Shown: piece by piece, positions 14,139 through 34,360 of the stretch
Layout of the letters: each line of letters starts with the position of its first letter
Numbering within the stretch: position 1 is the first letter of the stretch
Position numbers and translations under genes: made by a program
Source of the DNA: Candidatus Alcyoniella australis
GTDB taxonomy: Bacteria > Lernaellota > Lernaellaia > JAVCCG01 > Alcyoniellaceae
Direction: 5' to 3'
DNA: 45,195 bases
Assembly (NCBI GenBank): GCA_030765605.1
Contig: JAVCCG010000001.1
Span: forward strand, 1 to 45,195
Notes under the pieces: generated by a model
What the model was told of the DNA's origin: nothing
Databases searched by the model: none
The model's input: only the letters and a program-made list of their open reading frames with translations

Positions 14139-15436
14139 AGGCCAAACTCAAATCGCTGCCCGTGGAGCGCATGCGCGGCGAGGTGCGTCCGCCGGGCGAC
14201 AAGTCGATCAGCCATCGGGCGCTGATCCTCGGTTCGTTGTGCCAGGGCCGGGTCGAGATCAGCGGGCTGGCCCAGGGCGCTGACGTGCGTGCCACTGCCT
14301 GGTGCCTGGCGCGGCTGGGCGTGGATTTACAGCTCGACGGCTGCGACGCGCTGATTAACGGCCAAGGGCTCGGCGGATTTCGCCAGCCGGACTCGGCGCT
14401 GGATTGCGGCAACTCGGGCACCACGTTGCGGCTGCTCTCGGGGCTGGTCGCCGGTGCGCGGATTACGACGACGCTTGGTGGCGATAAGAGCCTGCAAAAG
14501 CGACCGATGGGACGCATCAGCGCTCCGCTGCGCAAGATGGGCGCGCTGATCGGTGGACCGCAAGACGGGACCCGCGCGCCGCTTTACATCGAGTGTCGCG
14601 GCGTGCGTCCGCGGCTGCACCGGCTCGAAATCGCCTCGGCCCAGGTCAAGTCGATGATCCTGATCGCCGGTGGATTCGCACACGGACTGACCCAGGTCGA
14701 GGAGCCCGCGCCGACCCGCGACCACACCGAACGCATGCTGTGCTTTCTCGGAGCCGATCTTTGCACCGAGTTCCCGCGCGTGTCCCTGCGCGGCCCGCTG
14801 GACTTGGGACCGGCCGCGCTGCGCGTGCCCGGCGATCCCTCGTCCGCCGCGTTTCTGTGCGCGGCCGCACCGTTCATCCGACGCTCGCGTGTCGTGGTTC
14901 GAGATTTGTGCCTCAACCCCACGCGCACCGGGTTTCTCGAGGTGCTGCGCAATATGGGCGCGCGTTTTGAAACCCAGAACCTGCGCGATGTCGACGGCGA
15001 GCCGGTGGGCGATCTGGTGATGCGCTACGGAGCGCTGCGCGGCTGCACGATCCTGGGTCGGCTGGTGCCGCGCACCATTGACGAGCTGGTGGTGCTGGCG
15101 TTGATCGCGTCCATGGCCCGCGGCGAGACCGTGATCAAGGACGCGGCCGAACTGCGGCACAAAGAGAGCGATCGTATTGCGGGCACGGTCGATGCGATCA
15201 ACGCCCTGGGCGGAAGTGCCGAGGCCACCGACGATGGAATGTTGATCCACGGCCTGGACGGGCCGTTGCTCGGCGGCACGATCCGTTCGCGCGGCGACCA
15301 TCGCCTGGCCCTGGCCGCGCTGGCGATCGGTGCGGTCACCCAGCGCGGCGTGAGCGTGGAGGGTGCCGAGGCGATAGCGGTGAGCTACCCGGAGTTCGTG
15401 CAGCAGTTCAATTCGCTGGGAGGATCGATCCAGTGA
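14132..15436 (+). CDS. aroA: 3-phosphoshikimate 1-carboxyvinyltransferase (EPSP synthase)
   Basis: 434 residues from GTG 14132, with GGGAGGGG about five bases upstream inside miaA. It is the shikimate-pathway step joining phosphoenolpyruvate and shikimate-3-phosphate. Landmarks are PPGDKSISHRA (Lys24 region), GNSGTTLRLL, GDPSSAAFL and HKESDRI. A longer upstream-open frame exists, but the family start and ribosome-binding site favour 14132. It overlaps cmk by four bases. Confidence 0.96.
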   Translation: MLKAKLKSLPVERMRGEVRPPGDKSISHRALILGSLCQGRVEISGLAQGADVRATAWCLARLGVDLQLDGCDALINGQGLGGFRQPDSALDCGNSGTTLRLLSGLVAGARITTTLGGDKSLQKRPMGRISAPLRKMGALIGGPQDGTRAPLYIECRGVRPRLHRLEIASAQVKSMILIAGGFAHGLTQVEEPAPTRDHTERMLCFLGADLCTEFPRVSLRGPLDLGPAALRVPGDPSSAAFLCAAAPFIRRSRVVVRDLCLNPTRTGFLEVLRNMGARFETQNLRDVDGEPVGDLVMRYGALRGCTILGRLVPRTIDELVVLALIASMARGETVIKDAAELRHKESDRIAGTVDAINALGGSAEATDDGMLIHGLDGPLLGGTIRSRGDHRLALAALAIGAVTQRGVSVEGAEAIAVSYPEFVQQFNSLGGSIQ

Positions 15437-16119
15437 GCGCCGAAAGCCGCGAGCCGGTGGTGGCGATCGACGGACCGTCCGGTGCGGGCAAGAGCACGGT
15501 CAGCCGTAGCGTGGCCCGCAGCCTGGGATTCACCTACATCGACACCGGAGCGATGTACCGCGCCGTGGCCCTGGCCGCGCAGCGCGCAGCAATCGCTGAA
15601 CACGACGATCAAGGCCTGTCTGCGCTGTGCTCCGAGATCAATCTTTATTTCAAACCGGTCCGGGACGGGCAGCACATCGTGCTCAACGGCGAGGACGTTG
15701 AGCGGCTGATCCGCACGCCCGAGATCTCGTTGGCCGCGTCCGCGGTTTCGGCCCGGCCGGCGGTGCGCCGTGCGATGGTCGATCTGCAGCGCCGGATGGG
15801 AGCCGCGGGCGGCGTGGTGATGGAGGGGCGCGACATCGGCAGTCATGTGTTTCCCGACGCCGAGGTCAAAATCTTTCTTTGCGCCTCGGCACTGGTGCGC
15901 GCGCAGCGGCGCAATTGCGAGCTGGCCGGACGCGGGATTGACGAGGATCTGAGCGCCACCCTGGAGCAGATGCGCAAGCGCGACGCTGACGACAGCAGTC
16001 GCGAACTCGCGCCGCTAATTAGGGTCGCGGACGCGCACGAGTTGGACACCACCGAGCTGAGCCTGGAGCAGGTGATCGGGCGCGTATTGGAAATCGTTGA
16101 GCAGGCGCGAAAAAAATAG
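15433..16119 (+). CDS. cmk: cytidylate kinase
   Basis: 228 residues from GTG 15433 (GTGA overlap with aroA). It phosphorylates CMP/dCMP. Walker A GPSGAGKST (14-22), the TGAMYRA motif, GRDIGSHVFPDAEVKIFL and the lid-region RKRDADDSSRE are present. aroA-cmk-rpsA is a common bacterial gene order, which supports both neighbours. It is the last gene of the mutL operon before a new promoter. Confidence 0.96.
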   Translation: MSAESREPVVAIDGPSGAGKSTVSRSVARSLGFTYIDTGAMYRAVALAAQRAAIAEHDDQGLSALCSEINLYFKPVRDGQHIVLNGEDVERLIRTPEISLAASAVSARPAVRRAMVDLQRRMGAAGGVVMEGRDIGSHVFPDAEVKIFLCASALVRAQRRNCELAGRGIDEDLSATLEQMRKRDADDSSRELAPLIRVADAHELDTTELSLEQVIGRVLEIVEQARKK

Positions 16120-16229: not shown

Positions 16230-18464
16230 ATGGAAGAAAAAGACAGAACGCAAGACCCGTCTGAGCAGACGGCCCCTGAAACGCAAGAGGCTGAAAACGT
16301 CAGTCCCGAACAGCAGGTCGAACAAACGACCGAGGGCGACTTGGATGAAAGTCCGGTAAGCTTTGAGGAGCTGCTGGAAATGTCCACGGTCAATCTCAAG
16401 GAAGGAGAGGTGGTTCCCGGTAGGGTGATCGCCATCCATCGTGAGATGGTCGTGATCGACGTGGGCTACAAGTCCGAGGGCGCTGTCCACATGTCCGAGT
16501 TCCTCAACTCCGACAGCGACCAAAACGTCAAGGTCGGCGATACGGTCAACGTGCTGATCGAGAGCCAAGAGGACGATGAAGGCAACATCGTCTTGTCCAA
16601 GGAAAAAGCGGACAAGATGAAAATCTGGGACAAAATCGCCAAGGCCTACGATAACGACGAGGCGATCGAGGGCCGGATCGTCAGCCGAGTCAAGGGCGGA
16701 CTGGCGGTCGACATCGGCATCCGCGGCTTCCTGCCCGGATCGCAAGTCGACCTGCGTCCCGTGCGCAACCTCGAGGCGTTGATCGGCAAAGAGGATCGAT
16801 TTAAAATTCTCAAGTTCAACAAGCGCCGGGGCAACATCGTGCTCAGCCGCCGCGCTCTGCTCGAGAAAGATCGCGAGGAGCTGCGCCAGAAGACGCTGGC
16901 CAAGCTCGAAGAGGGCGAGGTGATGGACGGCATCGTCAAGAACATCACCGAGTACGGCGCGTTCATCGACCTGGGCGGAATCGACGGTCTGCTGCATATT
17001 ACCGACATGACCTGGGGCCGCATCAGCCACCCCAGCGAGAAGCTCGAGATCGGCGACGAGATCCAGGTCCGCGTGCTCAAGTACGACGAGGAGCGTCAGC
17101 GGGTCAGCCTGGGACTCAAGCAGCTCTCGCCCGACCCCTGGCTGTCGGTGGACGATCGCTACCAGATCGACGATCGCGTTACCGGCAAGGTCGTCAGCCT
17201 CACCGACTACGGCGCATTCGTCGAGCTCGAGGAGGGGATCGAGGGCCTGATCCACGTTTCCGAGATGAGCTGGACCAAGAAGGTCAAACACCCGAGCAAG
17301 GTGCTCAACGTCAGCGACGAGGTCGAGTCGGTAGTGCTCGACCTTAAGAAGGACCAGCGCCGGATCAGCCTCGGACTCAAGCAGACCGAGCCCAATCCCT
17401 GGGTAGTGGTCGAAGATAAATACCCGGTGGGCACCCGTATCGTGGGCAAGATCCGCAACATCACCGATTTCGGCATTTTCGTCGGCATCGAGGAAGGGAT
17501 CGACGGCCTGATCCACATTTCGGACATCTCCTGGACCCAGCGCGTGCGCCATCCCGGCGAGATGTATAAGAAGAGCCAAGAGGTCGAGGCCGTGGTGCTC
17601 AACATCGACCGCGAGAACGAGCGCTTCAGCCTGGGCGTCAAGCAGCTTACCCCCGATCCGTGGTCAACGATCCCCAACCGCTACAGCGTGCGGCAGGTGG
17701 TCGAGGGCGAGGTGCTCAACATCACCGACTTCGGCATCTTCGTGTTCCTCGAGGACGGCATCGAAGGACTGATTCACGTCAGCGAGCTGGGCCGCAAGAA
17801 GGTCGAAGACCCGAACACCATCGCCAAGGTCGGCGACAAGATCAAAGCCGAGATCATCAGCATCGATCAGGGCGAGCGCAAGATTCGTCTGTCGATCAAG
17901 AGCCTCCAAGAAAAGTCGGAGGCGGACGACGTCCATGATTACATCAAGCGCCAGGAGAGCGGCACATCGAGCATCGGCGATCTGATCAAGCAGGCTGCGG
18001 CCAATGCCGAGACCACGACCGAGGCAGGCGAAGAGCCGGCTGAAGAAGCTGGTGACGAGCCGGCTGAAGAGGCTGGCGACGAGCCGGTTGAAGAGGCCGC
18101 CGATGAGCCGGTTGAAGAAGCTAAAGAAGAGCCTGGCGACGAGCCAATTGAAGAGGCCGCCGATGAGCCGGTTGAAGAGGCCGTCGACGAGCCGGTCGAA
18201 GAGGCTAAAGAAGAGCCTGCTGATGAGCCCGTCGAAGAGGCTAAAGAAGAGGCTGCTGACGAGCCCGTCGAAGAAGCTGGCGCCGAGCCGGTTGAAGAGG
18301 CCGTTGATGAGCCGGTCGAGGAGACCGTCGACGAGCCGGTTGAAGAGGCTGACGATGCGCCGGTCGAAGAGACCGACGATGAAGAGAAGCAGGACGAGAC
18401 CAAGACAGACAGTGCCGACTCGGACGACGACGTAGAGCAAGACGACCAGGACAAGCAGGACTGA
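16230..18464 (+). CDS. rpsA: 30S ribosomal protein S1 with long acidic repeat tail
   Basis: 744 residues. After an acidic N-terminus it has six S1 RNA-binding domains at about 57-126, 143-209, 228-298, 313-385, 400-472 and 488-558. Domains 3-6 show the standard GxVxxITDFGxFVxL and GLIHxSE patterns. S1 unwinds and binds mRNA leaders on the 30S subunit. Typical S1 ends shortly after domain 6. This one continues with a repetitive tail (about 598-744) built from DEPVEEA-like units and ending in an Asp/Glu/Lys run. The tail is encoded by a degenerate tandem repeat (about 18020-18370). Confidence 0.96.
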   Translation: MEEKDRTQDPSEQTAPETQEAENVSPEQQVEQTTEGDLDESPVSFEELLEMSTVNLKEGEVVPGRVIAIHREMVVIDVGYKSEGAVHMSEFLNSDSDQNVKVGDTVNVLIESQEDDEGNIVLSKEKADKMKIWDKIAKAYDNDEAIEGRIVSRVKGGLAVDIGIRGFLPGSQVDLRPVRNLEALIGKEDRFKILKFNKRRGNIVLSRRALLEKDREELRQKTLAKLEEGEVMDGIVKNITEYGAFIDLGGIDGLLHITDMTWGRISHPSEKLEIGDEIQVRVLKYDEERQRVSLGLKQLSPDPWLSVDDRYQIDDRVTGKVVSLTDYGAFVELEEGIEGLIHVSEMSWTKKVKHPSKVLNVSDEVESVVLDLKKDQRRISLGLKQTEPNPWVVVEDKYPVGTRIVGKIRNITDFGIFVGIEEGIDGLIHISDISWTQRVRHPGEMYKKSQEVEAVVLNIDRENERFSLGVKQLTPDPWSTIPNRYSVRQVVEGEVLNITDFGIFVFLEDGIEGLIHVSELGRKKVEDPNTIAKVGDKIKAEIISIDQGERKIRLSIKSLQEKSEADDVHDYIKRQESGTSSIGDLIKQAAANAETTTEAGEEPAEEAGDEPAEEAGDEPVEEAADEPVEEAKEEPGDEPIEEAADEPVEEAVDEPVEEAKEEPADEPVEEAKEEAADEPVEEAGAEPVEEAVDEPVEETVDEPVEEADDAPVEETDDEEKQDETKTDSADSDDDVEQDDQDKQD

Positions 18465-21094: not shown

Positions 21095-22099
21095 TTGAGG
21101 CCGCTGGGCCTGCTGCTGTTGATCCTGTGCTGCCTGCCCGGGGCGGCGGCTGCCCAGGATGCGTCGGCCCAATCGCTGCTCGCGCTGCACGCTGGGGGCA
21201 ATCTGCCACATTTCTGCCGCGAGGTCGGCCGCTATCTCGACCATCATCCCGATGACCCCCAGACTGCGGCGCTGCTGCTTTGCTCGGCCGATTGCTCGGA
21301 CCAGGCCCTGGGCCGGATCGCGGTCTATCGCCAGGTGCTGCGCATCGAGCCTCAGGGCGCGGAGGCCGGGAGCGCGGCCCTGGCTTTGGCCGAGCTGAGC
21401 TATCTGCTGGGCGACTACGCCTCGGCCCTTGAGGCGACCCGGGTCTTGATCGAGGGTAAGTATTCCGTGCCGGAAGTACTGCGCGCCCATCGGCTGGCCG
21501 CGGATTGTCACCGGGCGCGCGGCCACCCCGACCTGGCGGCCCGCGATCTGCGGGCGCTGCTCGAGGCTGCTTCGGAGGGCTATGGGCCGATCGACGCGGC
21601 ACGGGTCGATTTAGCACAGATCGAACTCGAGGCCGGACGGCCGCGCCAGGCCATTGAATTGTGCCGCACATTGATTCCCGATGGCGATCCGGAGCAGCTG
21701 CCGCGGGCGCTGTTGATCGCGGGCAGGGCGCACCTGGCCTTGGCCGAGCCCGGGGCCGCGGCGCGGATGTTCAACGCTACGCTGATCTTCGGCAGCAGCG
21801 AGCAGGCCGAGCAGGCGCGGCTGCTGCTGCGCAGCTCCTCGCCGGTGCACGACAATCCGCTGACCTATCAGACGCAGGACGCTTTCGCTATTGTGCTCGG
21901 CCCGTTTGGCGACGAGCGCTCCGCCGCATCGGCCGCCGAGATGGTCGCCGTCCTGGGCTACGGCGCGCGGCCGCGCGTTGCCGGTGTGCAGCAACAGGTG
22001 CGGGTCGGACCGTTCGACGCGGAGGTCGATGCGTTTCTGGCCCTGCGGCGCATCGAACGCGAGCTGGGACTCAAGGGGCGGCTGGAACGTATACAATGA
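21095..22099 (+). CDS. exported TPR/SPOR-domain protein
   Basis: 334 residues from TTG 21095, the only plausible start; no strong ribosome-binding site, so it may depend on translation of the gene seven bases upstream. A signal peptide (LLLLILCCLPGAAAA) precedes an Ala/Leu-rich helical-repeat region of TPR type (about 25-245). The C-terminal SPOR domain (about 262-334) includes DAFAIVLGPFGDERSA and VRVGPFDAEVDA. SPOR domains bind denuded septal peptidoglycan, so a role in cell division or envelope remodelling is likely. The substrate of the TPR part is unknown. Confidence 0.75.
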   Translation: MRPLGLLLLILCCLPGAAAAQDASAQSLLALHAGGNLPHFCREVGRYLDHHPDDPQTAALLLCSADCSDQALGRIAVYRQVLRIEPQGAEAGSAALALAELSYLLGDYASALEATRVLIEGKYSVPEVLRAHRLAADCHRARGHPDLAARDLRALLEAASEGYGPIDAARVDLAQIELEAGRPRQAIELCRTLIPDGDPEQLPRALLIAGRAHLALAEPGAAARMFNATLIFGSSEQAEQARLLLRSSSPVHDNPLTYQTQDAFAIVLGPFGDERSAASAAEMVAVLGYGARPRVAGVQQQVRVGPFDAEVDAFLALRRIERELGLKGRLERIQ

Positions 22100-26917: not shown

Positions 26918-28066
26918 ATGAGACGCTACGGGCTCGTAGTCTGCTTTGTGTTGCTTTGCGTTGTGGGACTGTGCGCAGTTCCGTTCCTGGGCTGTCTGGA
27001 TACTTCGACCCCAGTCGATCAATCCGACGACGACGTTATTGACGACGACGATAATGGCGACGACGACGACGGGCAGATGGTCTGGATCGCAGGCAAAGAC
27101 TGGGTCGGGGGCCGGGGAGTGCTGCTGCAACGCGAGCAGGACGGCTGGAAAAGGCTCGACCCCCTCGATCCGGACGGCAACTGGGACCTGAAGCAAGTCG
27201 CCGTGGGCGGTGCGAACTACGCCGTGGCGGTGGGCAACCTGCTATCCGAGTATCAGGGGCTGATCGCCTATTTCAACGGCGAGAAATGGAGCTCGATCTC
27301 CCCCTCGAGCGCTCCTGAAAAATGGTCGCTCAACGCCGTGGACATCGCCGATGACCACGTGGTGGCCGCGGGATCGGACCAAGAGAATCTCGCCTCTCCG
27401 GTGGGGTTGCTACTGCACTACGACGGCAACAGCTGGCACAACCGCGACCTGCCGCAGGTCGGATCGGAGTGGGAGCTGCTCGACCTGGACATGCTCTCGA
27501 ACGAGAACGGCTTTGCCGTGGGCCACTCGGGTCGCAACGGCAGCCGACAGGGCGTGATCCTGCGTTGGAAGGACGCGGAGTGGATCGACTACACTCTTCC
27601 CGACGTGTCCGACGACTGGGAACTGCACGCGGTATCGTTCGCCGGAACCGGCGCGGTATGGAGCGTGGGCGTGGACAACTCGGGGACCGTGTCGCGGCCC
27701 GTAACGCTGTATAAGTCCGAGGGCCCGTGGCAGCAGGTCGACGTTGAGGACACGCGGATGGAGCTCAACGGCGTGAACTTCATCAGCAGCTCGTTGGGAT
27801 TTATTTGCGGCGAGAGCCTGGGCAAGGGGATCGTCTACCGCTTCAACGTCGGCGACTGGGAGAAACAGGATCTGCCGGACGTCGACGGTCAATGGTTGCT
27901 CAACGATATCGCCATGGTCAGCCAGACCGAGGCCTACGCCGTTGGCAAGTCCGTGCAGGACGACCAGGGGATCGCCCTGTACTGGAACGGCGCACAGTGG
28001 TCTCAGATCGACCTGCCGCAGATTAGTTCGAACTGGGAGCCGTTGGGCATCGGCGTCACCCACTAG
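26918..28066 (+). CDS. D-rich lipoprotein with beta-propeller repeats
   Basis: 382 residues from ATG 26918 with GGGAG at 26904-26908. The signal ends in FLGC. An Asp-rich stalk follows (DQSDDDVIDDDDNGDDDDG). The rest is about seven to eight repeats of roughly 45 residues, with a Trp-rich strand (such as GWKRLDP), WxLxxVxx and an Ala-Val-Gly strand (YAVAVG, GFAVGHSG, AYAVGKS). This resembles BNR/photosystem-stability-factor-like propellers. It is probably surface-displayed; no catalytic motif. It resembles the converging gene at 28367-29587 in architecture and repeat pattern, so the two are likely paralogues. Confidence 0.75.
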   Translation: MRRYGLVVCFVLLCVVGLCAVPFLGCLDTSTPVDQSDDDVIDDDDNGDDDDGQMVWIAGKDWVGGRGVLLQREQDGWKRLDPLDPDGNWDLKQVAVGGANYAVAVGNLLSEYQGLIAYFNGEKWSSISPSSAPEKWSLNAVDIADDHVVAAGSDQENLASPVGLLLHYDGNSWHNRDLPQVGSEWELLDLDMLSNENGFAVGHSGRNGSRQGVILRWKDAEWIDYTLPDVSDDWELHAVSFAGTGAVWSVGVDNSGTVSRPVTLYKSEGPWQQVDVEDTRMELNGVNFISSSLGFICGESLGKGIVYRFNVGDWEKQDLPDVDGQWLLNDIAMVSQTEAYAVGKSVQDDQGIALYWNGAQWSQIDLPQISSNWEPLGIGVTH

Positions 28067-28366: not shown

Positions 28367-29587
28367 CTAGTGAACGGTCAGGTCGTTGAGCTGGACGCTG
28401 ATCGTGTCCTCGAATGTCGGCAGGGTCTCGTCGGACCAGGAGTCGCCAGTATATTTGGTGAGGATTCCTCGGCCCTGTTCCAGCTCGGTGTCGAAGTAAA
28501 CGCCGCAGACCCAGGGCACATTAGCGGTGTCAAGGGTGCCGCCGATAAGAGCCCAGGTGTCGTACGCCAAGTCGGGCGGGATCTCCTCGAAGCTTTCGCC
28601 GCTGACAAAGCCGACCTGTCCGCCGCTGGCGGCGCCGCTGTTGTCATTGCCCACGATCAGCACCGCGTCTCCGGTGTGGGTCACCGAGCCGATGTTAACG
28701 TCGCTGATTGAGAAGAGCGGCGGAGTCAGTTCCCAGGTGTCGAATTCGGGTTTGTAGATCATGGTCACCGACTCGGATCCGGCCGTGTTGTAACCCGCGA
28801 CGAACGAGTCGATCGCCTTATCCGGGCTGATGCCCAGGGCGTAGAATTCCCAATCGGCGGAGATCTCGGGCATTAGGTAGGGCTCGCCAAAGCCTTCGTT
28901 CGTCCACTTGAGCACCAGGCCGGTCTTGCCGCCGGTTGTGGGGAACTCGGCCCCGGCGAACCAGGCTTCGCTCTGGGAGATACAGGTTACAGTATTGAGA
29001 TACCAGTCGGTTAGATAGGTCGGCGCCACGTCGCTCCAGGTGCCGTTGCTGTAGCGATAGATCAGGGCCTGGGTTCCGTCGCGGCCGGCTACGAAGCCGA
29101 AATCCGCGGAACAGAAGTCGACGTCGTGAAGCTCGAAGGACTCGGGAAGGGTAATGCCGCTGAAGTCGATATCAGCCCAGCCCTTGCCCGTATACTGCAG
29201 GGCGATGCCCACATCTTCGTCGTTGCCAACGGCGTAGCCCGCGGTTGCGGATACGAAATCCACGGCGTCGAGGGTCCAGGATACGCCTTCGGCGCGTTCG
29301 GGCACGGCCACCTCGCTCCAGCTGCCCTTGGCGTCGCGCTGTAGGGTCAGGCCGGTTAGCTCGTTGCCCTCGGGTGCAAGGGTTCCCTTGAAGCCTACAG
29401 CCCAGGCGTAATCGACCACAACATCATCGTCATCATCGTCGTCGTCATCATCGTCGTCATCATCATCGTCGTCATCGTCGCCGGAATGATCGTCGTCGTC
29501 GTCATCGGACGAGCAAGTCACCGTAAACAGCATGGCGATTGCCAGTAGGATAACCAGCCATAGGCTGAACCATTTATAATTCGACAT
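28367..29587 (-). CDS. poly-Asp lipoprotein with beta-propeller repeats
   Basis: 406 residues from ATG 29587 (GAGGAGA just upstream on the minus strand; a longer in-frame start at 29656 lacks a signal). The signal peptide ends in lipobox VTC followed by SS. Next is an extreme Asp stalk of about 27 residues interrupted once by HSG, encoded by a GAC/GAT trinucleotide tract (about 29418-29512). The remainder shows propeller-like repeats with WxLxAVDFVSATAGYAVG and similar strands, like the lipoprotein at 26918. A lipidated, highly acidic tether presenting a propeller at the cell surface is the simplest reading. No enzymatic motif is seen. Confidence 0.75.
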   Translation of the reverse strand: MSNYKWFSLWLVILLAIAMLFTVTCSSDDDDDDHSGDDDDDDDDDDDDDDDDDDDVVVDYAWAVGFKGTLAPEGNELTGLTLQRDAKGSWSEVAVPERAEGVSWTLDAVDFVSATAGYAVGNDEDVGIALQYTGKGWADIDFSGITLPESFELHDVDFCSADFGFVAGRDGTQALIYRYSNGTWSDVAPTYLTDWYLNTVTCISQSEAWFAGAEFPTTGGKTGLVLKWTNEGFGEPYLMPEISADWEFYALGISPDKAIDSFVAGYNTAGSESVTMIYKPEFDTWELTPPLFSISDVNIGSVTHTGDAVLIVGNDNSGAASGGQVGFVSGESFEEIPPDLAYDTWALIGGTLDTANVPWVCGVYFDTELEQGRGILTKYTGDSWSDETLPTFEDTISVQLNDLTVH

Positions 29588-29622
29588 AGTGTTTCTCCTC
29601 AAGGGCCCCTTATGTTTTGAAA

Positions 29623-29652
29623 ATAGTACTACAGGAGCTTGGCGCACATCAA
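29623..29652 (-). promoter_or_regulatory. possible promoter of the poly-Asp lipoprotein gene
   Basis: On the minus strand TTGATG (29652-29647), 18-base spacer, TACTAT (29628-29623). It is about 36 bases before the start codon. Confidence 0.4.
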
Positions 29653-29728
29653 TCAATTATCTCACGCGGCCGTGGCCGCGCAGGGGTCGTTGATTGACGA
29701 TAATCAAAATCAGCGAGGTTTTGGGCAT

Positions 29729-30343: not shown

Positions 30344-31996
30344 CTATTTAATGACCAGGAACTCCACTCGGGCGATCGGCTCGGCGCTTCCCATGCCCTT
30401 GGTCTTCAGCCGTCCGGCCGTGATTCCGCGGCGCACCAGGTAGTTGCGCAGGGTCTGAGCGCGACGCTCGCTGAGCTGCTGCAGCTCGTCGGCCTCGCCG
30501 ACATCGTCGGTGTGCACCCTGATTTCAACGGTCAGCTCGGGATGGGCCATCAGGATGTTGGAGATGTCGTTGAGCATCGTCAGGCTCTCGGCCGATACGC
30601 GCTTGTCGCTACCCTGGGCAAAAACGATCGGCGTGGGCAGCCGGATCTCCTCGGCGAAGAGCACCACGCCGCTGGGGCGGCGGTCGATCTCGACCTCGGG
30701 GCAGCCGTCGTCGTCGCGGTAGTTGTTGAAGGTCTCGGCCTGCAGCGGGCATTGGTCCGTTGCGTCGGCGATGCGGTCGCCGTCGGTGTCGGCCTTGAGC
30801 GGATCGCTCTTGAGCTCGTTGACCTCGCGGCCGTCCTCGATGCCGTCGCCGTCGGTATCGACGTTGCGCGGATCGGTGTTGGCGATTTTGACCTCTTGGC
30901 CGTCGGACAGGCCGTCGTCGTCGCTGTCGGCATCGCGCGGATCGGTGAGCGTAACTTTGAGCTCCTCGCCGTCAAGCAGTCCGTCGCCGTCGCTGTCGGG
31001 ATTGTTCGGATTGGTGTTGGCCTGCTTCTCCTCGAGGTTGGTCAGGTTGTCGCGATCCGGGTCGGCCGTGGGCGCTGCCGACGCGGATGCCGAAGCCGCG
31101 CGACTGGGCCGCTCGAGCGGCGGGTAGGTGAAGCTCAGTCCGGCGAACCCGCGGTAGGACGGGCTGCCGATGCCCGGGGTAATACCCGCACCGCCGCCGA
31201 GCACCAGCGCGATTCCCGCGCCGGGATAGATCTTAATACCGGCCTGGGCCTCGATCGGCATCTCGGCGTCGATTCCCTCTACGCCGTAATCCGAGGTCTT
31301 GCCGAAGGTCTCGCCGAACAGGTCGATCCGACGGTGAGCCGCGATGTCCAGACCGATGCCCCACAGCAGTTCGCCCGCGGGCTCGATTTCGTCGGTGGCT
31401 CCCTTATAGCGGTATCCGCCGTTGATCACGATGTTGACCATGTCGAAACGCTTGTCCAGCACCAGCTTGGCGCCGAAGTCGTTGGCGCCCGCGCCGATGT
31501 ACAGTGCGTCGTCGCCGGTGGCGAACGAGCCGAAGGGCACCAGTGCGATGCCGAAAATCCCGTCCGGGCTGTTCTCGAGAATGCCGATCTTCAGCGCGGC
31601 CTGTAGATCGCCAAATCCGTTGCCGTCGGCATCCTTGGTGGGAAAGCCCTTGAGCCCGACCGCGCCCTGACCGCTGCTGGCGACCATGTTGTAGCTGCCG
31701 CCGAGCATTACGTCCAGGCGCTTGATCACGCCCACCGAGGCGTAGACGTGGTTGGCGAACAGGCTTTCGACCGCCACCAGATCGCCGCGATCGCCGATCG
31801 AGAACACCAGCGGCTCGCCCGCGTAGTTGGCCAGGTAACCCAGGCTGAACTGTCCCATCTCCAACGTGTCGGAGTTGTACAGTGACATCAGGCCGGTGGT
31901 GGTCAGCGCCGGGTTCATGTTCTGGATGTCGATTGCCGCCGCGGGCGCGGCCAGCAGGCCGACGATCAGTAGCGCGATTGACAGGCGTTTTGGCAT
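30344..31996 (-). CDS. OmpA-family protein with thrombospondin type-3 repeats
   Basis: 550 residues from ATG 31996 with GGAGGG upstream. The layout is a signal peptide (1-22); an N-terminal outer-membrane beta-barrel-like domain rich in Gly/aromatic strands (about 23-292); an Ala/Ser linker; then four to five calcium-binding type-3 repeats (312-415) of the form DSDGDGLLDGEE, DSDDDGLSDGQE and DTDGDGIEDGRE. The C-terminal OmpA-like peptidoglycan-binding domain (about 445-550) contains VEIRVHTDD and LSERRAQTLRNYL. The final loop with the usual NRRVEF context is shortened to GMGSAEPIARVEFLVIK. It probably links outer membrane and cell wall. It starts one base after the metallophosphoesterase stop. 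Confidence 0.88.
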   Translation of the reverse strand: MPKRLSIALLIVGLLAAPAAAIDIQNMNPALTTTGLMSLYNSDTLEMGQFSLGYLANYAGEPLVFSIGDRGDLVAVESLFANHVYASVGVIKRLDVMLGGSYNMVASSGQGAVGLKGFPTKDADGNGFGDLQAALKIGILENSPDGIFGIALVPFGSFATGDDALYIGAGANDFGAKLVLDKRFDMVNIVINGGYRYKGATDEIEPAGELLWGIGLDIAAHRRIDLFGETFGKTSDYGVEGIDAEMPIEAQAGIKIYPGAGIALVLGGGAGITPGIGSPSYRGFAGLSFTYPPLERPSRAASASASAAPTADPDRDNLTNLEEKQANTNPNNPDSDGDGLLDGEELKVTLTDPRDADSDDDGLSDGQEVKIANTDPRNVDTDGDGIEDGREVNELKSDPLKADTDGDRIADATDQCPLQAETFNNYRDDDGCPEVEIDRRPSGVVLFAEEIRLPTPIVFAQGSDKRVSAESLTMLNDISNILMAHPELTVEIRVHTDDVGEADELQQLSERRAQTLRNYLVRRGITAGRLKTKGMGSAEPIARVEFLVIK

Positions 31997-31997
31997 C

Positions 31998-34268
31998 TCA
32001 TGCCCTCCGTCGAGCAACAAGCAGAAATAGCATGCCGAGCAAAACAAATATCAGCGTTGCGGAAGTTGGGCCGTTTTTCGCGGTCTGGCAGCCGCAGCCC
32101 TCTTCCTCTTCGTCCTCATCGTATTCGAGTTTAATCGTTGTCTGGCTCTGCGATTGGGCGCCGTGCTCGTCCATCACGATCAGTTGCACGATGTAGTAAC
32201 CCTGGCCCGGCGCGTGAAACGTCAGCCGGTCGCCTGAGAAGCGCTCGGAGCTGATGAACCAGTCGTAACGCACGATGCGGTCGTCCTGGTCCGGGTCGAA
32301 GCTGTCCTCGGCCGAGACCACGAACAGGCCCCGCTTGTGGTCCACGCGCTCGACGGCGATGGAGGCCAGGGGAGGAGCGTTGTCCGTGTCCGGCGCGGCG
32401 ACGATGGTGTGCAGCCCGCCCTGCCAGGGCTGGGGCGGGAACTGCGCGGCCTCGCACGCGGCGGGCAGTGCGGCGCGGGCGTAGATTACGGTCTCGCCCT
32501 CGTCGCCCAAGCCCAGGTCGACGATCGGCAGCTGGGTCTGAGTAAACAGGTCGTAAACGCGGTAGCCCGTGCCATCGCCGCGCATGTAGAACTCGAGGTT
32601 GATCGTCACCGGCTGGAACAGCGAGTTGTTGGCCAGCACCTCGACCACATTAGTGGTGCCGTCGTTGTAGGTCAGCGGCAGGGTCCAGACGTTGCCCGCG
32701 GGGAGCGATTGCAGCGAATTCTCGGCCGAGAAATCGACGTCGCGCAATATCCCGCCCTCAACGTCGATCAGCCGGTAGCCCCAGTAGTCCATGTCGGTGT
32801 AGATCGAGGAGCAGGCCGTGGTGGTGTGCACCCAGCGCATCGGCCCCTGGGTCGCAATGCCCGTGGACCGGCCCTCGTAGTCGATCAGTTCGTCGCCGGG
32901 CTCGAATACGTCGACCCAGTCCGAATGCACGTGGCCCAGAAACACGTGGCTCACGCCGTGGTCGACAAACGCCTTGAGCGCCAGCACGCCGGTGTTGACC
33001 TCCGGCGTCTCGTTGCTGATCGGGTCGGCCGGATCCGAGTCCCAGACCTCGCTGTCGTAGTTCCACTCGTCGTTGGTCAGGCCCAGCGGCTTGGCCGGGA
33101 ACTTGGTGTTGGGAGAGTAGGGGCCGCGCATATCGTGGTGGCCGAAGACGATCGTCTGTCGGCCTTCCACATCGTTGGCCTCGAGATCGGCGTAGAGCCA
33201 ATCGAGCTGCGGCTGGGTCATGAAGCCGCCGTAGTTGTCCACCGGGCTTGCCAGCGGCGGCAGCGGCAGCGAATTGCGGCGCTCGCGGCTGCCGTCGTAA
33301 GTGTTCAGGCCGACGACATGCAGCGGGCCGTAGTCGAAGCTGTAGTAGGGCGGGCCGAAAGTTCGGCGGAAATAGTCCAGACCGTCGTACTGCCAGTCGG
33401 CTTGGCGGACCATGCTCGCCATGCCGTCGTGGTTGCCCGGGACCATGAAGATCGGCACCTGGGTGTTCTTGAGCAGATCGTAGGCGTTACCGTATTCCTC
33501 GACGTAGTCCAGTCCGTAGACCAGGTCGCCGCTGAGCAATACGAACGCCGGCTTGAGCAGGTTCAGCTCGCTGATCTGCTGGCCGACGATTGCCGATACC
33601 AGCTGCTTGTCATCTTCGGTGTAGCCCGGGAAGTCGGCCGAGTTGAGCATTCTGCCGCCCGAGGCGCCGCGCGGGTCGTCGATGTGCACGTCGGTGATGT
33701 GGGCGAAGGTCAGGTCCGGCGAGATCTCGCGTACAACGTGCAGCGCGTTGAGCTGCTTATCGGCGAAGAATACCGTCGAGACGCGCACGGAGTAGGCGTC
33801 GGCGGGCGCTCCTCCGTTGACCCGGCAGCCAAGCTGGTACACGCCCCAGTCCTCTAAGTAGTCCACGGACTCGATGCTCAGCGGATAGGTCTGGGCCACG
33901 GCGTCGCCGACCTTCTCTTCCTCATTGTAGGGGTCGCTTTCGCGGGTCGTGATGTATCCGCGCCAACTGTCCGGATCGAGCAGCCGGTCCGCGAAGTGCG
34001 CGGCCATCAGCACGGTCAACTCGCCGCCGGGCTCGGTGATCGCGGGCATGCCCAGCACCGGGTAGATCATCTCGCCGATGCGCGGGAAAATCGGCCACTC
34101 CTGGTCCACGGCCAGGGCGTCGGAATAGCCCAGCCCCTCGGCGTCCACTGTTCCGTAAGGCCAGCCCGCGATGCTCGATAGGCTGTCGGCTGCCGCCGGG
34201 GCGGTGAGGCCGACGATTAGCGCCAGGCAAAGGATCGCTGTTGATATCGTATGCTTCGACGTTGCCAT
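31998..34268 (-). CDS. secreted metallophosphoesterase with MYXO-CTERM-like tag
   Basis: 756 residues from ATG 34268 (GGGAGAT upstream). Signal peptide (1-27), an N-terminal beta domain (to about 180), then a calcineurin-like phosphoesterase domain with all metal motifs: HITDVHIDD (Asp193, His195), LLSGDLVYG, VPGNHDG, FGHHDMRG and FLGHVHSDW. A C-terminal PKD-like beta-sandwich (about 640-715, with DSFDPDQDDRIVRYDWFI) precedes a Glu/Asp run, a Cys pair GCGCQ, a hydrophobic helix and terminal ARRRA. That ending resembles MYXO-CTERM/GlyGly-CTERM sorting signals that anchor exported proteins. The phosphoesterase substrate is unknown. Co-transcribed with the OmpA-like gene. Confidence 0.85.
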   Translation of the reverse strand: MATSKHTISTAILCLALIVGLTAPAAADSLSSIAGWPYGTVDAEGLGYSDALAVDQEWPIFPRIGEMIYPVLGMPAITEPGGELTVLMAAHFADRLLDPDSWRGYITTRESDPYNEEEKVGDAVAQTYPLSIESVDYLEDWGVYQLGCRVNGGAPADAYSVRVSTVFFADKQLNALHVVREISPDLTFAHITDVHIDDPRGASGGRMLNSADFPGYTEDDKQLVSAIVGQQISELNLLKPAFVLLSGDLVYGLDYVEEYGNAYDLLKNTQVPIFMVPGNHDGMASMVRQADWQYDGLDYFRRTFGPPYYSFDYGPLHVVGLNTYDGSRERRNSLPLPPLASPVDNYGGFMTQPQLDWLYADLEANDVEGRQTIVFGHHDMRGPYSPNTKFPAKPLGLTNDEWNYDSEVWDSDPADPISNETPEVNTGVLALKAFVDHGVSHVFLGHVHSDWVDVFEPGDELIDYEGRSTGIATQGPMRWVHTTTACSSIYTDMDYWGYRLIDVEGGILRDVDFSAENSLQSLPAGNVWTLPLTYNDGTTNVVEVLANNSLFQPVTINLEFYMRGDGTGYRVYDLFTQTQLPIVDLGLGDEGETVIYARAALPAACEAAQFPPQPWQGGLHTIVAAPDTDNAPPLASIAVERVDHKRGLFVVSAEDSFDPDQDDRIVRYDWFISSERFSGDRLTFHAPGQGYYIVQLIVMDEHGAQSQSQTTIKLEYDEDEEEEGCGCQTAKNGPTSATLIFVLLGMLFLLVARRRA

Positions 34269-34360
34269 TACGTGATCTCCCTGGTGTCCACCGCTTGCAC
34301 GGGCGCACAAATCCAGAACTGGAACGCGCGCCTGTACGTTTCAAACACAGTACAGGTAGT

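Follow-up and report, generated by a model that had tools for sequence, protein, structure and literature searches.

A long acidic octad-repeat tail on ribosomal protein S1 of Candidatus Alcyoniella australis

Why would ribosomal protein S1, which binds RNA, end in a long, repetitive and strongly acidic tail? The question is raised by rpsA of Candidatus Alcyoniella australis (phylum Lernaellota), which occupies positions 16,230–18,464 on the + strand of the 45,195-nt stretch of contig JAVCCG010000001.1 (assembly GCA_030765605.1) that we analysed and refer to as the window. The open reading frame encodes 744 residues, ends in TGA and was assigned through Pfam and curated-model matches: PF00575 marks six stretches, NF004952 (30S ribosomal protein S1) spans residues 21–590 with 940 bits against a cut-off of 524, and TIGR00717 scores 654 bits against 577 at what is the single locus in the genome above that cut-off. 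The curated S1 models match end to end and bear out a preliminary description of this DNA, which had placed six S1 domains ahead of the tail. An AlphaFold2 model built on a 47-row alignment has the secondary-structure pattern of six barrels, predicted with high confidence, followed by a helix at residues 556–577 and a short helix at residues 585–591. The sixth domain, delimited by Pfam, sequence and the model, covers residues 481–562 (17,670–17,915, + strand). At the other end of the protein, residues 1–45 (16,230–16,364, + strand) form an acidic extension (net charge −12) of low confidence in the model, and the 517 residues of the six-domain core carry a net charge of −18, so that the core too is acidic as a whole. 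The gene lies between cmk (15,433–16,119, identified by reading its translation rather than by a model) and an sppA-like gene (from 18,490), which is followed by an ihfB-like gene (from 19,409), the latter two recognized by model matches; the resulting order, cmk–rpsA–(sppA)–ihfB, compares with cmk–rpsA–ihfB in Escherichia coli. Apart from its acidic C-terminal extension, the S1 of the window is otherwise ordinary.

Beyond domain 6 the protein first carries the motif IGDLI (residues 582–586; 17,973–17,987, + strand), which overlaps the short modelled helix and fits a pattern that we defined as [LIFVM][GA][DE] plus two hydrophobic residues about 20 residues after domain 6. The tail proper covers residues 601–744 (18,030–18,461) and is strongly acidic as first described, with 73 Asp or Glu among its 144 residues and a net charge of −67, all in frame. 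The interval 18,021–18,461, originally reported as a 147-residue acidic end, does correspond to S1 residues 598–744, the repeats themselves starting at residue 601 (18,030). They comprise 13 octads with the consensus DEPVEEA plus a free eighth residue (24 bp each, in frame), interrupted by three four-residue inserts (residues 601–716; 18,030–18,377, + strand); the original estimate of about 15 repeats was therefore close, the exact count being 13 octads and three half-units, and the Asp/Glu/Lys end that it placed after them is a 28-residue stretch of Asp, Glu, Lys and Gln (residues 717–744; 18,378–18,461, + strand). Tandem Repeats Finder returned the same 24-bp array and its multiples with scores of up to 285, in agreement with the earlier reading of the DNA as a degenerate tandem repeat. 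Past the first 35 residues beyond domain 6 the composition is 34% Glu, 16% Asp, 15% Ala and 10% Pro, with a proline at every eighth residue of the octad array. AlphaFold2 assigned neither helix nor strand to residues 601–744 (pLDDT block means of 38–54), and the highly charged tail is predicted to be intrinsically disordered.

The substitutions among the octads indicate that the tail is maintained as protein. Over the first seven codons, all pairs of the 13 octads gave a pS of 0.557 against a pN of 0.071, and comparison of the octads with their consensus counted 23 synonymous and 8 non-synonymous changes; in 5,000 neutral simulations with an equal total of changes, the non-synonymous count averaged 23.4 with a minimum of 16, and none fell as low as 8. 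Divergence is thus large at synonymous sites and small at replacement sites, and the octads have therefore been kept as protein since they arose, a pattern that supports constraint on the tail. Because the inter-octad substitutions are mainly synonymous in the S1 frame, we rejected the overlapping frames (143 aa on the + strand; 171, 258 and 335 aa on the − strand) as real genes. Across the 4.29-Mb genome the degenerate octad pattern occurred ten times in the forward and never in the reverse orientation, always inside the rpsA tail, and its reversed control occurred twice; with the pattern confined to rpsA, a genome-wide habit of the same repeat was rejected. The PNPase of this genome, called as such by its length and S1 match rather than by a model, ends without an acidic tail.

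How S1 ends in the same phylum was examined in six other genomes of the same class, drawn from other families and genera, whose S1 cores are roughly 60–70% identical to that of the window. Beyond the motif, all seven genomes encode a net negative stretch (range −68 to −7), whose length varies between families from 18 to 158 residues. For loci L001–L006 and then L023, the lengths are 158, 60, 151, 62, 18, 65 and 57 residues, with net charges of −68, −22, −63, −17, −7, −15 and −12, respectively. In L003 (genome G002) the pattern caught a chance match at position 6, ahead of the proper motif, which ends at position 20; its 151 residues therefore take in 14 that lie before that end. Two of these genes, both in draft genomes, show apparent frame changes: in L002 (G005) the frame changes close to where the acidic tail ends, and residues were counted as far as that point, and in G006 the S1 gene is split between L023 and a neighbouring frame. 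Under a stricter definition of a long acidic tail (at least 60 residues after domain 6, a net charge of −8 or lower and at least 25% Asp or Glu), four of the seven genomes qualify, L002 having missed this threshold because its out-of-frame end was included there. The window tail, used as a query against the seven phylum genomes at E values up to 0.1, found no other S1 tail; it matched two of the seven genomes, and the match in the relative (contig C377 of G006) is not on that genome's S1 contig, C94. The comparison with relatives that had been proposed at the outset thus found acidity in every S1 end, and the octad sequence was absent from the other six tails. The S1 tails of the phylum have kept their charge while being unrelated in sequence.

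To place these tails among other bacteria, we searched 154 genomes and found an S1 match at E values up to 1e-60 in 136; the 116 in which the match reached query residue 555 were kept (7 from the same class and 109 from other families), and 20 that stopped earlier were dropped. A long acidic tail as defined above is present in 26 of the 109 six-domain S1 genes from other families, and 83 are without one; 4 of the 109 run off the stretch of sequence taken. Stretches of 60 or more residues of any kind after domain 6 were seen in 35 of the 109, and clearly basic tails of 40 or more residues in 2. A second, named set of 80 loci, of which 76 were complete and usable, was kept separate because it partly overlaps the survey (for example, L068 and L147); in it 17 of 76 tails are long and acidic, and relatives in the contig scan behind it reached at most about 61% identity. 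The tail of the window is the second most acidic of those compared, exceeded by that of L190, whose gene extends past its stretch. A quick tree was built from 115 S1 cores, of which 27 have a long acidic tail. Placing this label on it takes 20 changes (24.5 with shuffled labels), and starred branches force 13 or more of the 20; several long branches of the tree are uncertain, and gains and losses are not separable on it. The composition is also shared: 43 further acidic S1 tails, including some near-duplicates, have 30% Glu, 16% Ala and 10% Pro.

Recurrence in 26 of the 109 genes, together with about 20 changes on the tree, makes acidic S1 tails common, convergent and labile. They have been gained or lost many times on S1 across bacteria, so the window tail is an extreme but not isolated case of a common S1 design rather than a new kind of system. 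An acidic tail on S1 had at first been called unexpected; these frequencies, and the Ala/Glu-rich C-termini described for ribosomal proteins (PMC6821194), argue otherwise. E. coli S1 has already been called the most acidic ribosomal protein (PMC3858243). Term searches of two S1 sequence surveys (PMC6566611 and PMC6705787) found neither 'tail' nor 'acidic', and in the open-licence literature we found no description of acidic S1 tails, or of the motif that precedes this one and its function.

S1 has to hold mRNA and also let it go, so the tail is most simply explained as a tethered polyanion that reduces non-specific contacts. We tentatively favour, at less than even confidence, the reading that the tail may act as an electrostatic mimic of nucleic acid, loosening non-specific RNA binding and making mRNA exchange faster, a role close to the tuning of RNA release suggested in the preliminary description. 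Tethered near the six OB-fold domains, it would transiently occupy their RNA-binding faces or repel RNA; weak, non-specific contacts would be shed and mRNA exchanged more quickly, while the proper S1 contacts on the 30S subunit would persist. That the tail competes with RNA within the protein, and thereby affects RNA release, we infer by analogy: the acidic tip of the Hfq C-terminal domain is reported to compete with RNA for the core (PMC5606850), acidic clusters in Nop15 to suppress non-specific RNA binding (PMC8348266), the acidic disordered tail of HMGB1 to compete with nucleic acid for its own protein and D/E repeats to speed target search when decoys are present (both PMC10250230). The charge of the tail, its predicted disorder and its amino-acid constraint are consistent with such a role, as are the retention of negative charge rather than sequence within the phylum and the recurrence of acidic tails across lineages. 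Against it stand the acidic core, the 83 survey proteins that do without a long acidic tail and the rise of tail length and acidity with GC content in the survey, which would fit mutational drift equally well. Net tail charge is also uncorrelated with net core charge (Spearman 0.12, p 0.20, 115 proteins), a crude stand-in for surface patches, so that acidity is not matched to a basic core across homologues as an Hfq-type tail would have it; more basic cores would be expected with more acidic tails, and the null result therefore counts against simple autoinhibition. A charge balance between core and tail was rejected on these data.

The main rival, which we consider somewhat unlikely, is a tolerated low-complexity expansion, in which replication slippage, acting in a GC-rich genome on a stretch rich in GAG, GAC, GCC and CCG, extends a C-terminus that tolerates such additions, while selection keeps only solubility and the reading frame. 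The lability of the tails (about 20 changes among 115 proteins) and their wholly different sequences between relatives are what it would predict, and in the survey both length (Spearman 0.40) and net charge (−0.50, n = 110) follow local GC, tails becoming longer and more acidic as it rises. That the C-terminus is a permissive place is suggested by E. coli, which survives the loss of C-terminal S1 domains, domains 5 and 6 being deletable with limited effects on growth according to PMC3858243. Pure drift is, however, hard to reconcile with octads that hold seven of eight residues while their synonymous sites diverge. In the named set (n = 76) charge correlates with GC in the opposite sense (0.40) and length shows no relation to it (−0.16, p 0.18); the two sets contradict each other, and GC was set aside as the driver of the tails. 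S1 is normally made in large amounts, so 144 spare residues would be a cost to the cell.

Alternatively, the tail might be an entropic bristle, a solubility and spacing device that counters aggregation or crowding on the ribosome independently of any RNA mimicry. Its predicted disorder, high charge and regularly spaced prolines would suit such a device, as would the composition common to the 43 other acidic tails; the sign of the charge, however, would then not matter, yet 26 long acidic tails stand against 2 clearly basic ones among the 109 survey genes, and we regard this explanation as improbable.

More doubtful still is a binding arm for a basic partner such as a ribosomal protein, RNA polymerase or a basic RNA-binding protein, with S1 as a hub, a role that the preliminary description had also considered. 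Additional contacts have been proposed for the low-complexity ends of ribosomal proteins (PMC6821194), and the neighbouring protein S6 receives post-translational Glu tails through RimK (PMC11957791). The one candidate that we looked at was Tex, whose tails in the relatives, where readable, are Arg/Pro-rich and basic. Tex (PF16921) is present in all six relatives (G001–G006) and has no match in the 98%-complete genome studied here (G000), which nevertheless carries one of the two most acidic tails; a basic-tailed Tex was accordingly rejected as the partner in this genome. None of the eight matches to RimK (TIGR00768) in the genome passes the curated 143.4-bit cut-off, the best scoring 45.3, and modification of the RimK type was likewise set aside. 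Nor is the tail sequence conserved between relatives, as a specific interface would need.

An assembly error, or absence of the repeat from the mature protein, is very improbable: although the genome is a draft in 157 contigs and the S1 tail of one relative (G005) changes frame close to its end, the frame here is intact, the substitution pattern is that of coding sequence, S1 ends are acidic in all seven genomes of the phylum, and a halved or collapsed repeat, which the preliminary description had named as a possible refutation, is unlikely because the longest exact repeat in the tail region (31 bp) is easily spanned by ordinary short reads.

If about one quarter of six-domain lineages carry self-regulating acidic tails, the affinity of the ribosome's mRNA-catching arm would be an evolvable quantity. 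The natural series of lengths within one phylum, from 18 to 158 residues, would then offer a ready test.

The motif ahead of the tail is possibly a more useful outcome than the tail itself. Its pattern is present in 50 of 102 other-family tails of at least 15 residues, in all 7 of the class and in 53 of 76 of the named set, where per-sequence shuffles average 2.3, 0.25 and 1.4, respectively. Fixing the Gly lowers the counts to 40 of 102, 5 of 7 and 51 of 76; the middle half of the survey then has the motif at position 19–21, and the most frequent residues spell T-L-G-D-L-L-K-E. Many of the misses are near variants, such as FGMLIKEKM and FESILNEEL. The end of E. coli S1, NNAMAEAFKAAKGE, fits the pattern in the equivalent slot in the diverged form AMAEAF. 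The motif is a concrete and testable feature in a part of S1 to which we found no function ascribed. Several S1 proteins terminate shortly past the motif, and the tail is therefore an extra segment downstream of it. Of the 26 long acidic tails 8 contain the motif, compared with 42 of the 76 other tails of at least 15 residues; this lower frequency speaks against motif and tail working as a functional pair. It is conceivable, though we think it unlikely, that six-domain S1 proteins share a two-part C-terminal control region, in which a helical motif docks on a partner and the remainder is a freely evolving charge reservoir; acidic reservoirs would then be repeatedly evolved, RNA-mimicking release arms, and S1 an Hfq-like, self-regulated chaperone.

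Elsewhere in the window, two similar-looking secreted proteins (26,918–28,066, + strand; 28,367–29,656, − strand) carry runs of Asp directly behind a cysteine that is probably that of a lipoprotein, in a presumed lipobox; these runs would be poly-Asp linkers at the membrane. Judged by eye from its translation, the product of 30,344–32,047 (− strand) is a beta-barrel-like protein with an OmpA-like end and calcium-binding-looking repeats of the DxDxDG type (about 23 residues, or 69 bp; 30,776–31,021). The gene at 31,998–34,310 (− strand) encodes a phosphoesterase-like secreted protein ending in Cys-Gly-Cys, a membrane stretch and an Arg-rich tail, an arrangement that presumably resembles myxobacterial sorting signals. 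Within the frame 21,095–22,099, ARAGORN called an 87-base tRNA-Gly (21,946–22,032, + strand); this call is probably false, since no Rfam family attains its gathering threshold in any part of the window.

Among known systems, the tail resembles the C-terminal low-complexity regions of S2, S16, L25 and other ribosomal proteins, which are Ala/Glu-rich extensions found in many genera (PMC6821194), in being C-terminal, of low complexity and rich in Ala and Glu; it differs in its octad repetition with Asp, Pro and Val, and the section of that paper on such regions does not name S1 as one of the proteins rich in them. The RimK-made poly-glutamate of S6 likewise places a Glu run at the C-terminus of a 30S protein, one whose tail is said to meet S1 (PMC11957791), but that run is post-translational and removable, whereas the S1 tail is encoded in the gene, in a genome without a RimK match above the cut-off. 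Actinobacterial S1, including Mycobacterium tuberculosis RpsA, also has a lineage-specific C-terminal extension (PMC10931766), although most actinobacterial S1 proteins have four S1 domains (PMC6705787) rather than six. HMGB1 tails, D/E repeats and electronegative clusters are, similarly, long acidic disordered tails that inhibit their own protein's nucleic-acid binding (PMC10250230, PMC8348266), in proteins that are mainly eukaryotic and of other folds. Hfq of E. coli and Caulobacter carries a short acidic tip on a linker, with competition against RNA that has been measured, whereas in S1, where we infer it, a repetitive tail of 144 residues follows OB folds; common to both is an acidic C-terminal tail, disordered in Hfq and predicted to be so in S1, on a bacterial RNA-binding core, its length and sequence varying between species (PMC5606850).
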